DNA from: Nodosilinea sp. FACHB-131 | Lineage (GTDB): Bacteria > Cyanobacteriota > Cyanobacteriia > Phormidesmidales > Phormidesmidaceae | Assembly: GCF_014695395.1 (NCBI RefSeq) | Contig: NZ_JACJOF010000017.1 | Coordinates: 1-64,000 of the forward strand | DNA length: 64,000 nt | Direction of reading: 5' to 3' | Shown here: one piece after another, positions 1-6,000 of the stretch | Numbering within the stretch: position 1 is the stretch's first letter | How the letters are laid out: each line of letters opens with the position of its first letter | Translations under genes and position numbers: made by a program | Notes under the pieces: generated by a model | Told to the model about the DNA's origin: nothing | Database searches by the model: none | The model's input: the letters and a program-made list of their open reading frames with translations, nothing else

Positions 1-147
1 AGTTACATTGAGCGATTCAACAATACTCTCAGACAGCGGGTTTCACGCTTTGTCAGACGCAGCTTAGCCTTCTCTAAAAGTCTGCGCAATCACATTGGCT
101 TGCTGTGGAATTTTATTCACCACTACAACGCATCATTACCTCTCTAG
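1..147 (+). mobile_element. IS1-family transposase, C-terminal end (cut by window edge)
   Basis: The first 48 codons are open from base 1 to a TAG at 145-147. They read as the end of an IS1-type transposase: ERFNNTLRQR, then a basic stretch with FSKSLRNHIG, then FIHHYNASL, which is typical of the C-terminus of cyanobacterial IS1 transposases. The catalytic part would lie upstream, so whether the element is intact cannot be judged. No terminal inverted repeat or target duplication can be checked from one end only. It marks the left edge of the window as a site of past insertion. Confidence 0.75.
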
Positions 148-159
148 TACTACCCAACA

Positions 160-561
160 ATGGCTCAAATCACTATCGCCATTCCCGATGATCTGGTTCA
201 GCAGTTAGCCCCCTTTCAAAGCCAGTTTTCTAATCTCTTTACTCGGCTCATCGCCGCTACCCTGCTCGGTCAGCCTATTCCAGGCCAAAGCCTTGCTGCC
301 TCTCCCGCGTTTACCACCTCTGCTACCTACCAAGAAATCCTCGACTTCCTCGTCAGCCAGCCTACCTTGGAGCAGATTATGGGCTTCAAAATTTCTGAGA
401 CATCGCAAAGCCGCCTGCGAACACTACTACAAAAGAATCGCGAGGCCACTCTCACCTCTGCCGAAACAGCAGAGCTAGACCTCTATAAGCAGTTCGACAC
501 TCTGATCGGGTTTCTCAAAGCCCGCGCTCTCACCGGGCTCAAGTCGGCTCCCAACAACTAG
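160..561 (+). CDS. Small conserved hypothetical protein, antitoxin-like
   Basis: A 133-residue protein starting 12 bases after the transposase stop. The N-terminus (ITIAIPDDLVQQL) looks like a short strand followed by a helix. The C-terminal half is highly charged and helical (RLRTLLQKNREATLTSAETAELDLY). Cyanobacterial proteins of this shape often sit immediately before an HNH or PIN nuclease gene and behave as antitoxin-like partners; that is family knowledge from memory. Here no nuclease follows: the next gene lies on the other strand. It may be an orphan left by the neighbouring insertion, or have another role. No function is assigned. Confidence 0.6.
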   Translation: MAQITIAIPDDLVQQLAPFQSQFSNLFTRLIAATLLGQPIPGQSLAASPAFTTSATYQEILDFLVSQPTLEQIMGFKISETSQSRLRTLLQKNREATLTSAETAELDLYKQFDTLIGFLKARALTGLKSAPNN

Positions 562-651
562 TGTTTTTGTCAAGCTTAATCTTTGGGGTTCGTAGGGTAC
601 ATAACGCCAAGGCGAGGCTTTGCTAGAGCGAGGCAATGCACCATACAGAGG

Positions 652-1107
652 CTAAAAATCATCGATTAAGCCGCTCAGGCGAGACAGCACAGGATCTTCA
701 GGTACCTCTTCGATCTCTTCTGCGTAGTGCACATCGTCTGAGACTGGCTGAGAAAAACTTGGGACAGCAGAACCAGCGCCGGCCAGATGAACCACTTGAA
801 GCGACAACTGCGCCAGTTGAGCTTCCAAGCGCTCTAGCCGGTCTTTCTCCTGGGCAAAAAAACGCTGCTCTACACTGAGCAGCTGGGCCTCAAGGCTCTC
901 GATGCGTTTGTCTATTGATAATTGACTAGGGTAAGAGTGATTACTCAGCAAAAGCTGGTGGAGCGCTTCTTTGCACAGGCCGCTAAAACTCAAGCCTGGC
1001 TGTCTATCTAGCTCAGCCTTTACAGCCGCTAATAGATGTTGATCAAGCTCACTTTGGCGAAAAAGAACCAACTTCTTCGTCTGGCGTAACCACTTCAATA
1101 CCATCAT
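652..1107 (-). CDS. ParR-like ribbon-helix-helix/coiled-coil partner of the actin-like protein
   Basis: A 151-residue protein. The N-terminal part (RQTKKLVLFRQSELDQHLLAAV) has the pattern of a ribbon-helix-helix DNA-binding domain: a basic strand followed by two helices. Residues of about 60-100 form a leucine-rich, charged coiled coil (SIDKRIESLEAQLL). The tail is acidic and ends SRLSGLIDDF. It lies 149 bases downstream of the ParM-like gene on the same strand, the arrangement seen in plasmid parM-parR operons. I chose the ATG at 1105-1107 because AGGA lies 5 bases ahead. An in-frame TTG at 1143, with GGAAGAG ahead of it, would add 12 residues. ParR identity is inferred from domain shape and context. 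Confidence 0.6.
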   Translation of the reverse strand: MMVLKWLRQTKKLVLFRQSELDQHLLAAVKAELDRQPGLSFSGLCKEALHQLLLSNHSYPSQLSIDKRIESLEAQLLSVEQRFFAQEKDRLERLEAQLAQLSLQVVHLAGAGSAVPSFSQPVSDDVHYAEEIEEVPEDPVLSRLSGLIDDF

Positions 1108-1146
1108 TCTCATCCTGAAACCATGGTGCCACCCACTGGTCAAAAT

Positions 1147-1224
1147 CTCTTCCCAATCGACGGCAGAGTTTGCTTTCCCAAGACACTCATCTAAGCAAGC
1201 AAATCAACATTCGATTGGGAAGAG
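1147..1224. promoter_or_regulatory. Perfect 14-bp inverted repeat between parM-like and parR-like genes
   Basis: The arms CTCTTCCCAATCGA (1147-1160) and TCGATTGGGAAGAG (1211-1224) are exact reverse complements separated by 50 bases. They lie in the spacer between the actin-like gene and the ParR-like gene. The arm spacing is too wide for a simple terminator, and no T-run follows. A pair of inverted binding sites for the ribbon-helix-helix protein, an operator or a minimal centromere-like site, is a reasonable inference. Confidence 0.5.
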
Positions 1225-1256
1225 GTTAGGCACGGCTAACGCCCAAATCAAAAAGC

Positions 1257-2390
1257 CTAAGCTGCCGCGCGGGCCGCACGAGCCCCTGCCACCTGGGCTT
1301 CTCCATAAATATACTGCCCTAGGGCGTTAGCCTGTCGGCTCGGCGTAGCGAGGTGGGCATTGATCTTGGCCTCTTTCAGCAAGCGCTGAATATCTTCCCA
1401 AAAGAACTCGCCGCCGCCACCCGTGAGAATGACGTCTGTGACTCGCTCCGGCAGCCAGGCCAACAGCCGGTCACACATCTCCCGAGAGAAATTCTCTTTG
1501 AGGTTGGGCAAGATGTCATCTAAATTAGTAGGCCGATTGGCGCCTCGCGGACGGTAGAAGCGTTCTCCTTTGGGCTGGTTTACAGCCGCGATTAACGCCA
1601 AAGATTGGCTGTCGGCTCCCTCAATTTGGGAGGCTACCTGCTCATAAAACTGGCTCATGGCGAATGCTTCACTTCTAGAGACACCACGCGCAAATCTAAA
1701 GTTATCGACCATGATGCAGTCTGTGGTTTGATGCCCAATATCCACGATCGCAACCGGCAGCTTAGTAAAGTCAACATTAATGTCTTTCTTCTCTTGCACC
1801 TCGTTCCAGAGAATGCTGCCATACCCTTCGGGCATGACCCAAACCTTATTAATGGTGATGGTGATCGGTTCACCCCGATAGCTCATCACATGCGGCCCCA
1901 GCAGCAGGCTCATCAGCTGCTCTTTCTCACGCTCAAACTGATCTTGCGAATGATAGGGCAGTCCCAGCACGACCGAAATCTCATCCCGCATTTGAAAGTA
2001 ACCGACACAGGCCAAAACCTTGACCAAAGCATCGTTTACCTTAGATTGACCAACCCCTAAATTAGCGCCAAAATCTTCTGCGAGCTGTCCCATGGCATAG
2101 CCGCTGCCCTGATAAACCATCCAAATGTCAGATAGAGGATCCGTTGCCCGGGCCTCGAAGGCGCCTCCCTGCACTTGTTCTATCGACAGATGTTTGACAT
2201 TCGCCGGAATGAATACAACACCGTTAGGATCCCGGCTGATAGAAGTTTTTGTAGAGGTTCGTCCCAAATCAACACTGAGAATAGATTTGGAGGACAACCC
2301 AACGTTTTCCTTAGGTGCTGCGGCTTCGCCTGTGGTTCTCACTGGCGAAGTCTGGTTCATCGGTATCGAAGCAGCTTGTGACATGGTCAT
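1257..2390 (-). CDS. ParM/StbA-family actin-like ATPase
   Basis: A 377-residue protein of the actin/Hsp70 ATPase fold. The phosphate-1 loop is VDLGRTSTK (about residues 40-48), the phosphate-2 loop is VDIGHQTTD (about 216-224) and the adenosine loop is TGGGGEFF (about 323-330), in the order and spacing of ParM/StbA proteins. The first 35 residues are low-complexity and the last ten are Ala/Arg-rich. In plasmids ParM polymerises to push apart ParR-bound centromeres. In cyanobacterial chromosomes the job of these actins is not settled. The next gene on the same strand is a ParR-like protein. ATP binding is well supported; segregation is inference. Confidence 0.85.
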   Translation of the reverse strand: MTMSQAASIPMNQTSPVRTTGEAAAPKENVGLSSKSILSVDLGRTSTKTSISRDPNGVVFIPANVKHLSIEQVQGGAFEARATDPLSDIWMVYQGSGYAMGQLAEDFGANLGVGQSKVNDALVKVLACVGYFQMRDEISVVLGLPYHSQDQFEREKEQLMSLLLGPHVMSYRGEPITITINKVWVMPEGYGSILWNEVQEKKDINVDFTKLPVAIVDIGHQTTDCIMVDNFRFARGVSRSEAFAMSQFYEQVASQIEGADSQSLALIAAVNQPKGERFYRPRGANRPTNLDDILPNLKENFSREMCDRLLAWLPERVTDVILTGGGGEFFWEDIQRLLKEAKINAHLATPSRQANALGQYIYGEAQVAGARAARAAA

Positions 2391-2861
2391 TGATTCTGAA
2401 CCCTTTATCGAGCATCACAAAAACCACCAACCTCATGACCCCGCAACAAAGCTGCGTCAAAAACCTCTAAGGACTTTGACGGAGATCAGGTTTTAGACTT
2501 GATGGCTAACTGTCCAAGACTCCTAAATCAACAAAGTGTTCCAGAAAAAAGTTTTCTTCTGCAAGTTTTACTTTGGCATCAAAGTGTTAAGTATTTAAGT
2601 GATTTTCCGGGCAACCAACCTGTCAGTATTCTCTATCATTAACGGGTCAAAAAAATTACCAAGATTCTCCATGAAAGCCTGCAAATTCTAAATCCGAGGC
2701 CCGTTTATTCAATTCCTGTCGTCATCTACCCGGTGGCGTAATAAGCAAAACTGATGATTCTAGCCTGTGGCTTGTCTACCTTGGTCAGTTCGTAGCTGCC
2801 ACAAATATATGGTTCAAACCAGGTGGTTGGAGTAGGCGTAGTTTTTCACTAAAGCAACCAC
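2391..2861. other. Intergenic stretch upstream of the ParM-like gene
   Basis: About 470 bases between the start of the actin-like gene and the groEL terminator. It is A+T-richer than its surroundings and should hold the promoter of the actin-like gene, transcribed leftwards. No convincing open frame, RNA gene or long repeat was seen in it. Confidence 0.5.
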
Positions 2862-2899
2862 AAAAAAGGCTCGGCTAATTTAATTAACCGAGCCTTTTT
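2862..2899. terminator. Rho-independent terminator of groES-groEL (bidirectional shape)
   Basis: The stem is AAAAAGGCTCGG paired with CCGAGCCTTTTT, with an A/T-rich TAATTTAATTAA interior. It ends in a T-run on both strands. It lies 43 bases past the groEL stop and is the obvious end of the chaperonin transcript. Confidence 0.85.
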
Positions 2900-2907
2900 C
2901 ACATACT

Positions 2908-2935
2908 TCAGGCAGCCTAGATTCAGGCTGCCTGA
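2908..2935. other. Stem-loop directly after the groEL stop codon
   Basis: TCAGGCAGCCT (2908-2918) and AGGCTGCCTGA (2925-2935) pair perfectly around a 6-base loop. It sits 6 bases past the groEL stop and ahead of the main terminator. It has no T-run, so it may protect the 3' end of the mRNA or assist termination. Confidence 0.5.
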
Positions 2936-2941
2936 GCGAGT

Positions 2942-4864
<1,923 letters not shown>

Positions 4865-5176
4865 CTAGCCGAGGGCAGCAAGAATGTCAGACTCGCGCAG
4901 CAGCACGTAGTCATCGGTGCCGAGCTTGATGTCGGTACCGGCGTACTTCGAGTAGAGCACCTTGTCGCCGACTTTGACTTCCACCGGCTGGAATGAGCCG
5001 TTGTCGTCGCGCTTGCCGGGGCCGACCTGCACCACTTCACCCACCTGGGGCTTTTCCTTAGCAGTGTCGGGCAGCAAAATGCCACCGGCAGTTTTTTCTT
5101 CGGCTTCGCTGACCTTGACCAAAATGCGATCGCCCAGAGGCTTCACAGTAGACACACTCAGGGTGACTGCGGCCAT
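4865..5176 (-). CDS. groES: Co-chaperonin GroES
   Basis: A 103-residue co-chaperonin, the cap of the GroEL cage. It has the family signature [32 protein letters not shown] in the first 45 residues, containing the mobile loop, and ends [14 protein letters not shown]. The start is fixed by a strong Shine-Dalgarno GGAGG at 5183-5187, read on the minus strand. It is the first gene of the groES-groEL operon, 51 bases downstream of the CIRCE operator. Confidence 0.98.
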
Positions 5177-5227
5177 AACGTACCTCCAAAGGTTTGCTTA
5201 GTAGACGTTTGAGTAATTCAGAATGCG

Positions 5228-5254
5228 TTAGCACTCGCGCATCCTGAGTGCTAA
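5228..5254. promoter_or_regulatory. CIRCE operator (HrcA binding site)
   Basis: TTAGCACTC, nine bases, then GAGTGCTAA: an exact match to the CIRCE consensus. It lies 51 bases ahead of the groES start. HrcA repressor binding and heat-shock derepression follow from established knowledge of this element. Confidence 0.97.
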
Positions 5255-5324
5255 TTTAGCCGCCAGAAAGTTCTCTCCGCAATTCTCTGGAAGGTGTGGT
5301 TTGCCGAACTTAGGAGTAGGGAAT

Positions 5325-5436
5325 GTAAGGGTAGATGAGTGGATAAGTAGGGGGTGGATGAGTTTAACGAAGTGAAGGCGTAAACCGGCAAAAGAGTTAT
5401 AGAACCGGGTTACCCATCCACCCATCCACTCCCCAC
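5325..5436. repeat. CACCCATCCAC-type intergenic repeat, arms in inverted orientation
   Basis: A purine-rich arm (GAGTGGATAAGTAGGGGGTGGA, about 5336-5357) is answered by a pyrimidine-rich arm, ACCCATCCACCCATCCACT (5411-5429). A related tract, CACCCATCCACCCCATCACT, is found at 30823-30842. This looks like a dispersed non-coding repeat family. Confidence 0.5.
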
Positions 5437-5781
5437 TCACCCTTGCCACTCGCCAAACACAATCGACTGCGCCGCCTTCCCAATGCGCCCGAGGTCTTCG
5501 TCAAGCAGCGGCGGCCAGGTGACTCCGGCTTTTTGACCCTGGGCGTAGAGCTGACGGCTCTCGTAGGAGAGGATGAAAAGGGCTTTGGTGAGGGTGCGAT
5601 CGAGGGTGGGTTCGTTCTTTAGGCCTTCAAATAGCGCCTTGAGGGCGAGCAGCAAAGAGGTGACCTGCCCCGGCACGGGCGGTTTGCCCTGGCGTAGGCA
5701 GGCGATAAAGGTATCGGGTAGGTCTTCGCTAGTGCCAAGGGTTTGGCGGACGACAAATTCGCGAGAAGTTTCAAAATCCAT
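5437..5781 (-). CDS. Conserved cyanobacterial hypothetical protein
   Basis: A 114-residue protein, all-helical in appearance, with the conserved-looking blocks RLRQGKPPVPGQ (here CLRQGKPPVPGQ), LLLALKALFEGLK and WPPLLDEDLGRIGKAA. I recognise it as a short protein widespread in cyanobacteria, sometimes loosely named a dethiobiotin-synthetase-like protein, without a proven role. I chose the ATG at 5779-5781 because family members start MD(F/Y)ET. An in-frame ATG at 5892 would add 37 low-complexity residues. It is a single gene, convergent with nothing, divergent from the aminotransferase. Confidence 0.7.
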   Translation of the reverse strand: MDFETSREFVVRQTLGTSEDLPDTFIACLRQGKPPVPGQVTSLLLALKALFEGLKNEPTLDRTLTKALFILSYESRQLYAQGQKAGVTWPPLLDEDLGRIGKAAQSIVFGEWQG

Positions 5782-6000
5782 AGGGGTAACGGTAGCTGAA
5801 TAGGGTGATTTAGCCCCGCGTGTGCTGAGGATTGCGGCTGAGTCGACGCTAAGTTTGCCCCAGTTTACCGCCTGGTCGGATTTCAGCAGCATGGAACTGT
5901 AGAACGGTGTCTCCCTTCAGTTGATAAGGCGTCACAGTATGCGGGCAAGCTGAGCGTAACGGCGATCGCCCGTTGTTAACCCAAACCTACACAGGTGAGT

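Follow-up and report, generated by a model that had tools for sequence, protein, structure and literature searches.

What is the role of the actin-like ATPase gene and the small-protein gene that follows it near the start of this contig, and what is the inverted repeat that lies in the spacer between them? An earlier note on the 64,000-nucleotide stretch analysed here (the window) described the pair as a ParM/ParR-like module that looks chromosomal, raised the possibility of a centromere in the parM-parR spacer, which it called unusual, and named segregation of something else or a cytoplasmic filament as possible roles. Plasmid ParM-ParR-parC is a type II partition system, and it shares with the window the combination of an actin-like ATPase and a small coiled-coil partner in one operon. 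Both open reading frames were found in the order first described, on the minus strand (Table 1).

Table 1. Features at and around the two-gene operon, in window positions.
Feature	Position	Strand	Basis or remark
groES	5176-4865	-	name read from sequence
groEL	4576-2942	-	name read from sequence
terminator-like hairpin, groEL to corM	2859..2903	-	consensus scan only
fcmB/corM, actin-like ATPase, 377 aa	1257..2390	-	NCBIfam NF052678, Pfam ALP_N and MreB-like_C, PDB 9rmi
predicted intercistronic RNA hairpin, 87 nt, 28 consensus base pairs	1142..1228	-	folding, covariation, covariance model R1
base stem, 5' arm (first half of inverted repeat in the sense of transcription)	1211..1224	-	
upper stem-loop, 11 consensus pairs, within the 50 nt between the arms	1171..1201	-	from alignment A4 columns 29-59
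base stem, 3' arm	1147..1160	-	
fcmC/corR, 150-151 aa	652..1107 (ATG 1104 is the start kept in relatives)	-	NCBIfam NF052682
133-aa ORF, no family match over cut-off	160-561	+	

Identity and chromosomal setting of the two genes

The ATPase scores 670.4 bits against the curated FcmB equivalog model (cut-off 300), covering positions 11-373 of the 373 in the profile, and it exceeds the cut-offs of two Pfam domains of the actin-like fold (62.5 bits for ALP_N and 35.9 bits for MreB-like_C). The best solved structure by sequence is CorM, with which residues 4-375 of 377 align at an E value of 2.7e-179, and the closest named relatives belong to Nodosilinea, including strains labelled Phormidium and Leptolyngbya. 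The small protein reaches 144.4 bits against the FcmC model, whose cut-off is 90. The ParM/ParR-like character first noted is borne out and, judged by these matches, the two-gene module is the known FcmB-FcmC system, also named CorM-CorR, a chromosomal ParMR derivative that shapes the cells of filamentous cyanobacteria as rods and has been in print since 2025. A preprint by Springstein et al. from the same year reportedly describes the CorM-CorR system. A genome-wide search of the assembly (6.16 Mb in 45 contigs, base 1 of the window being base 1 of contig 9) returned corM and corR as single copies.

The chromosomal location suspected from the start is upheld by the adjoining groESL genes and by related loci whose contigs measure 5.46 Mb in G012 and 3.84 Mb in G025. 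The operon adjoins groEL in nine of the ten genomes of the genus that carry it intact; unlike these nine, G013 (L071) has its intact operon on a different contig from this groESL. Since the window begins at the first base of its contig, these groESL neighbours and the orthologous megabase contigs are what the test for a plasmid rests on, and the window itself carries no plasmid sign. The terminator-like hairpin downstream of groEL suggests that corMR may be transcribed separately from groESL. On the other side of the operon, the 133-aa frame recurs behind corR in L033 and L034 and behind groEL in G010, and the contig starts inside a transposase-like frame (window 1-147, plus strand, SYIERFNNTLRQRVSRF...), which we take to be a transposase of IS1 type and which may explain the break in the assembly.

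The start codon of corR conserved among relatives is the ATG at 1104, giving 150 residues; the length of 151 residues reported earlier holds for the ATG at 1107 but not for this conserved start. Nothing in frame corresponds to the TTG at 1143 in L010, L035 or L038. The coiled coil already suspected is supported by the predicted structure, in which two short helices are followed by a long coiled coil, a flexible linker and a C-terminal helix near the end, DPVLSRLSGLIDDF. The AlphaFold2 model places helices at 19-34, 40-53, 59-109 and 138-147; an extended N-terminus precedes the first two, and the linker ahead of the helix at 138-147 is of low confidence. This model is weak (mean pLDDT 74.5, pTM 0.34), and fold searches with it gave no match at E <0.001 or Z >=8 and listed no ParR or ribbon-helix-helix protein; a ribbon-helix-helix in CorR is suggested by the sequence pattern alone. 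An alignment with 28 of the 31 CorR references (L012, L014 and L019 were left out) contains 12 invariant columns, with a helix of the type SFSxLCKxAL, the coiled coil, and DPxxxRLxxxxDDF as the pattern at the C-terminal end; the most distant members vary somewhat. The C-terminal helix of plasmid ParR is its ParM-binding end and, by analogy, the conserved C-terminal peptide of CorR is probably the end that binds CorM. The N-terminus, rich in Trp and Lys (MVLKWLR or MFQWSKK), is a candidate for membrane association.

Comparison of CorR with the PDB by sequence returned SlmA alone, at E 0.8-0.9. A profile search gave matches from E 2e-4 in the coiled-coil part, the best of them including a phage tail needle, reovirus sigma-1 and designed coiled coils. 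A chain named Par (PDB 8csh) was matched at E 0.0076 over positions 63-137, which was taken as coiled-coil similarity.

The inverted repeat as the probable base of an RNA hairpin

The repeat proved to be a perfect 14-bp inverted repeat as first described, CTCTTCCCAATCGA at 1147-1160 being exactly complementary to 1211-1224, and it extends to 17 nt with one mismatch. It is not due to chance: a perfect 14-mer inverted repeat occurred in 1 of 20,000 random spacer-like sequences, and the window holds 9 perfect 14-mer matches within 150 nt, at 3 places, compared with a mean of 0.04 in 50 first-order Markov sequences of 64 kb.

The predicted hairpin segment (1142-1228) lies in the 152-nt spacer, beginning 28 nt past the corM stop codon and ending 37 nt before the conserved ATG of corR. 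Folded as the transcript, it gives a z score of -6.5, and none of 200 shuffled sequences was equally stable. Spacers of relatives were compared, as the earlier note had proposed, and 11 of the 13 loci compared in the Nodosilinea group have the inverted repeat in the same position; each of these 11 hairpins is more stable than all of its own 200 shuffles (z from -5.1 to -8.9), and the six that were tried with extra flanking sequence gave z scores from -2.1 to -4.6. The 13 distinct loci are the ten intact carriers among 26 genomes of the genus together with L033, L035 and L038; L032, L034, L036 and L037 duplicate L003, L004, L008 and L011 and did not enter the count a second time.

The changes among these loci favour a pairing in RNA over a site in DNA. 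The base stem, defined from the perfect repeat of the window alone, keeps its 14 pairs in 153 of 154 cells across the 11 loci, and sliding one partner by 1-3 columns lowers the pairing to 36-58%. Changes on both sides that preserve pairing affect 4 of the 14 pairs in the 11 sequences, a count reached in 2 of 500 shuffles, and 4 pairs of the whole 28-pair stem are doubly changed in 10 sequences, as in 16 of 500 shuffles; the sequences being related, such low counts overstate the case and are no probabilities. The cells of the whole stem in these 10 loci comprise 222 Watson-Crick pairs, 48 G-U, 1 A-C, 4 other and 5 gapped, although this consensus structure was derived from the same sequences on the coding strand and leans to G-U there. 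The stronger points come from the base stem, in which the cells other than Watson-Crick are 14 G-U, no A-C and 1 C-U, and from L038, whose CorM is 83% identical and whose arms differ in sequence but still pair at 14 of 14 positions. The repeat looks like a transcribed hairpin because its G-U pairs exist on the coding strand only. We consider it probable, jointly with the role in cell shape and in limiting CorR set out below, that the inverted repeat forms the base of a conserved 87-nt RNA hairpin in the corM-corR transcript. A search of window positions 1-6000 against Rfam gave nothing above a gathering score; the single overlap with the hairpin, MIR6201, was dismissed as chance (18.2 bits against a gathering score of 69).

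A perfect palindromic pair of arms close to a start codon might also be a DNA operator for a dimeric regulator, CorR or another protein, at a second promoter before corR, and the conservation of the leader between the hairpin and the start codon as well as that of the arms would suit such a site. A duplex operator, however, needs no strand preference and would not account for one-sided changes of the base stem that give G-U pairs and never A-C, nor for the arms of L038 changing in step; furthermore, 50 nt separate the half-sites in the window, and this intervening sequence is itself paired. We regard the operator as unlikely. The conserved leader stretch (1117-1134, minus strand, GGGTGGCACCATGGTTTC) is largely kept in L010 and L035, which are devoid of the hairpin, and partly kept in L038.

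The two exceptions within the group differ from each other. In L010 the repeat has been lost and another hairpin is predicted instead (z -2.3, with 6 of 200 shuffles as stable), while the spacer of L035 is longer and contains no stem that matches. Beyond the group the repeat and hairpin were not found in any of the 21 loci that have both genes, and the spacer is at most 36 nt in 20 of them. The loci L039-L052 have spacers of 5-9 nt in 14 of 14 cases and no hairpin, as opposed to the 152 nt with an RNA hairpin in the window, and the more distant loci L012-L019 have spacers of -4 to 36 nt in six of eight. The spacer of L016 is about 117 nt, without a match to the covariance model of the hairpin (R1), and L015 has corM with no corR found alongside, a 430-aa frame following instead. 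L053 (truncated), L002, L020, L031 and L054 were left out of the table of spacers. In the loci seen here, tightly linked corM and corR frames are thus the usual arrangement, and a long spacer that holds a hairpin is a feature of the Nodosilinea group.

The distribution, the G-U bias and the absence of iterons here led us to reject the centromere that the earlier note had considered between parM and parR: the repeat was not found in the 21 outside loci, and its G-U pairs are kept on the coding strand. A true segregation system, of a plasmid or of the chromosome, with the spacer repeat as parC, would explain a ParM-like ATPase followed by a small ParR-like gene and an inverted repeat that is real, and CorM does match the plasmid ParM model, but at 54 bits, far under the cut-off of 417. 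The full match to FcmB/CorM, the groESL context of nine of the ten carriers, the megabase contigs of two related loci and the short spacers of L039-L052 all argue against it. Repeated sites of the parC type were sought next to the operon, and the spacer contains one repeat pair. Any 10-mer, with one mismatch allowed, has at most 2 copies in the 500 nt upstream of corM in the window, as in 10 shuffles, and window positions 1-3000 hold no tandem array beyond 2-3 short units. The segregation reading is in our view exceedingly improbable, and the misleading notion of a centromere within a chromosomal parMR can give way to a cytoskeletal system described in 2025. When the same iteron test was applied to 32 loci, L017 alone exceeded its 10 shuffles, with 4 copies of CGCGATCGCC, presumably a HIP1-like sequence.

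A mobile palindromic element, a MITE or similar, that landed in the spacer by chance would fit the restriction of the hairpin to one genus-level group, and the longer spacer of L035 is apparently interrupted at the same place. R1 matches at E <=1.9e-14, however, are confined to the corM-corR spacer, where 9 of the 26 genomes have one each; these nine are among the ten sequences from which R1 was built and are recovered by construction. No strong place outside corM-corR was found among the 150 candidates scored per genome, out of 1280-3425 first-look candidates, a depth at which weak copies could be missed. Comparison of the window spacer by blastn recovered 8 of the 10 carriers (G003 and G013 were not found) at one place each, with no second place in those 8 genomes. 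Since the compensatory changes also point to selection on pairing, we hold a mobile element to be highly improbable. Of the remaining R1 matches, seven fall on the other strand at places already counted (28-47 bits as against 75-103), and two are 41-nt stretches, in G004 (E 0.0017) and G020 (E 0.03), that were taken as chance. R1, having been built from other loci, finds the hairpin of L038 weakly (20.9 bits, E 0.027).

Proposed role of the operon and its hairpin

The functions of the two proteins are known from Nostoc punctiforme, where, as passages of Nguyen et al. (2025, PMC12645912) report, fcmB and fcmC form one operon, FcmB assembles into membrane-bound filaments that encircle the cell, FcmC is required to keep these filaments at the membrane, and the loss of either protein leads to rounded cells. 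The same source describes no obvious change of nucleoid distribution upon deletion of fcmB, which is a further point against segregation. The window shares with that system, as far as it is described there, the gene order and the chromosomal location. By orthology we infer that CorM of this genome polymerises into membrane-bound, shape-setting filaments and that CorR would link them to the membrane. The cytoplasmic filament that the earlier note offered as an alternative is more likely than plasmid segregation, the module being the published FcmBC/CorMR.

We propose, as the most probable interpretation, that the locus is a chromosomal cell-shape operon in which an intercistronic RNA hairpin keeps CorR scarcer than CorM. 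Standing between the two reading frames, the hairpin would uncouple the expression of corR from that of corM; it could guard the 3' end of the corM message, be cut during processing, or stop part of the polymerases, and in each case the outcome would be a smaller amount of CorR. The position of the hairpin should leave room for the ribosome on either side, and masking of a ribosome site is disfavoured by the 37 nt that separate the segment from the conserved ATG. Intercistronic hairpins are also present in the puf operon of Rhodobacter. Unequal amounts of the two proteins would fit the observation in Nostoc punctiforme, from fusions that were non-functional, that FcmC-GFP is far less abundant than FcmB-GFP (PMC12645912, in the passages on these fusions). 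In Escherichia coli, according to parts of Dar and Sorek (2018, PMC5927463), structured RNA shapes the message ratios of operons; both cases concern stable hairpins in an operon transcript that could give unequal neighbouring cistrons, but the structures described there generally lie within coding regions and the one proposed here lies between cistrons.

The stopping of polymerases may be considered in its own right, with the hairpin acting as a partial intrinsic terminator that releases part of the RNA polymerase after corM. The stem is followed by ATTTTG or a similar sequence, with four or five T in 9 of 11 loci, and the outcome, more corM than corR, would be that of the interpretation above, which names this mechanism among others. 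The T run, however, is broken in L007 (TTTGTG) and L038 (TTTCG) and in several loci pairs partly with the 5' side; the hairpin was also not listed by a terminator scan of positions 1-3000, a scan that allows loops of 3-8 only. Partial termination seems to us possible but rather doubtful. A more speculative mechanism is that CorR, once a centromere-binding protein, has moved from DNA to RNA and binds the hairpin of its own message, the state of the cortical actin filaments feeding back on the amount of their membrane anchor. This we judge very unlikely; if CorR did bind it, the hairpin would have descended from a ParR operator, or replaced one, in the form of RNA.

A conserved hairpin between the genes of an actin and its anchor suggests that, in the Nodosilinea group, their ratio is under selection. 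Literature searches, partly weak in that 'actin' also matches Actinobacteria, found no publication that deals with the hairpin, or with corMR/fcmBC in Nodosilinea, and relative to the literature searched the corM-corR RNA hairpin in this group and the patchy presence of the operon within the genus are apparently new.

Patchy presence within the genus

Intact corM was found in 10 of the 26 genomes of the genus and fragments with a stop codon in one (G001), with no match in the remaining 15 (E 1e-30). Of the 20 genomes with a completeness of 90% or more and a contamination of 5% or less, 9 have a corM match, fragments included. FcmC was matched in one of the 16 genomes without intact corM, as a fragment in G001 below the cut-off. 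In L020 (from G001) and L054 (from Nodosilinea sp. P-1105), which are probably the same place, degraded corM and corR stand side by side as an operon pseudogene.

The presence of the operon was followed on an rpoB tree that covers 25 genomes, all but G021, in which the gene is broken up. The carrier label needs 6 changes on this tree (5-7 in bootstraps), of which the starred branches alone force at least 2, and 45 of 500 label shuffles need as few. The non-carriers G010 and G020 fall inside a clade with 100/100 support together with five carriers. The tree by itself does not tell loss from gain; loss of corMR is suggested because a pseudogene exists and because the operon adjoins groEL in nine of ten carriers. 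In G010, about 560 nt separate groEL from the next frame, the one that comes after corR in the window, and this gap contains no match to corM or corR. G020 also lacks this copy of groEL, and part of its absence of corMR could be an assembly gap.

All of the 26 genomes except G006 have an MreB match that passes the cut-off, and the match in G024 is interrupted; in G010 and G020 it covers positions 1-332 of 334. An operon that is kept, absent or wrecked within one genus offers a natural experiment on the role of its actin in cell shape with MreB present. Absence of FcmBC from some filamentous strains is reported in passages of PMC12645912, which do not mention absence within a genus, and a search of its main text for the terms Nodosilinea and Leptolyngbya returned none; the present case differs in being patchy within one genus.

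Other genomes of the genus and family encode a second actin-like protein of about 380 aa (L021:1321-2451, and similar in L022-L029), about 22% identical to CorM. Three of these proteins were tested and match the FcmB model weakly (45-50 bits against a cut-off of 300). In L021 the gene is followed by a frame of 162 aa, and the second protein could belong to another ParMR-like or FcmBC-like module.
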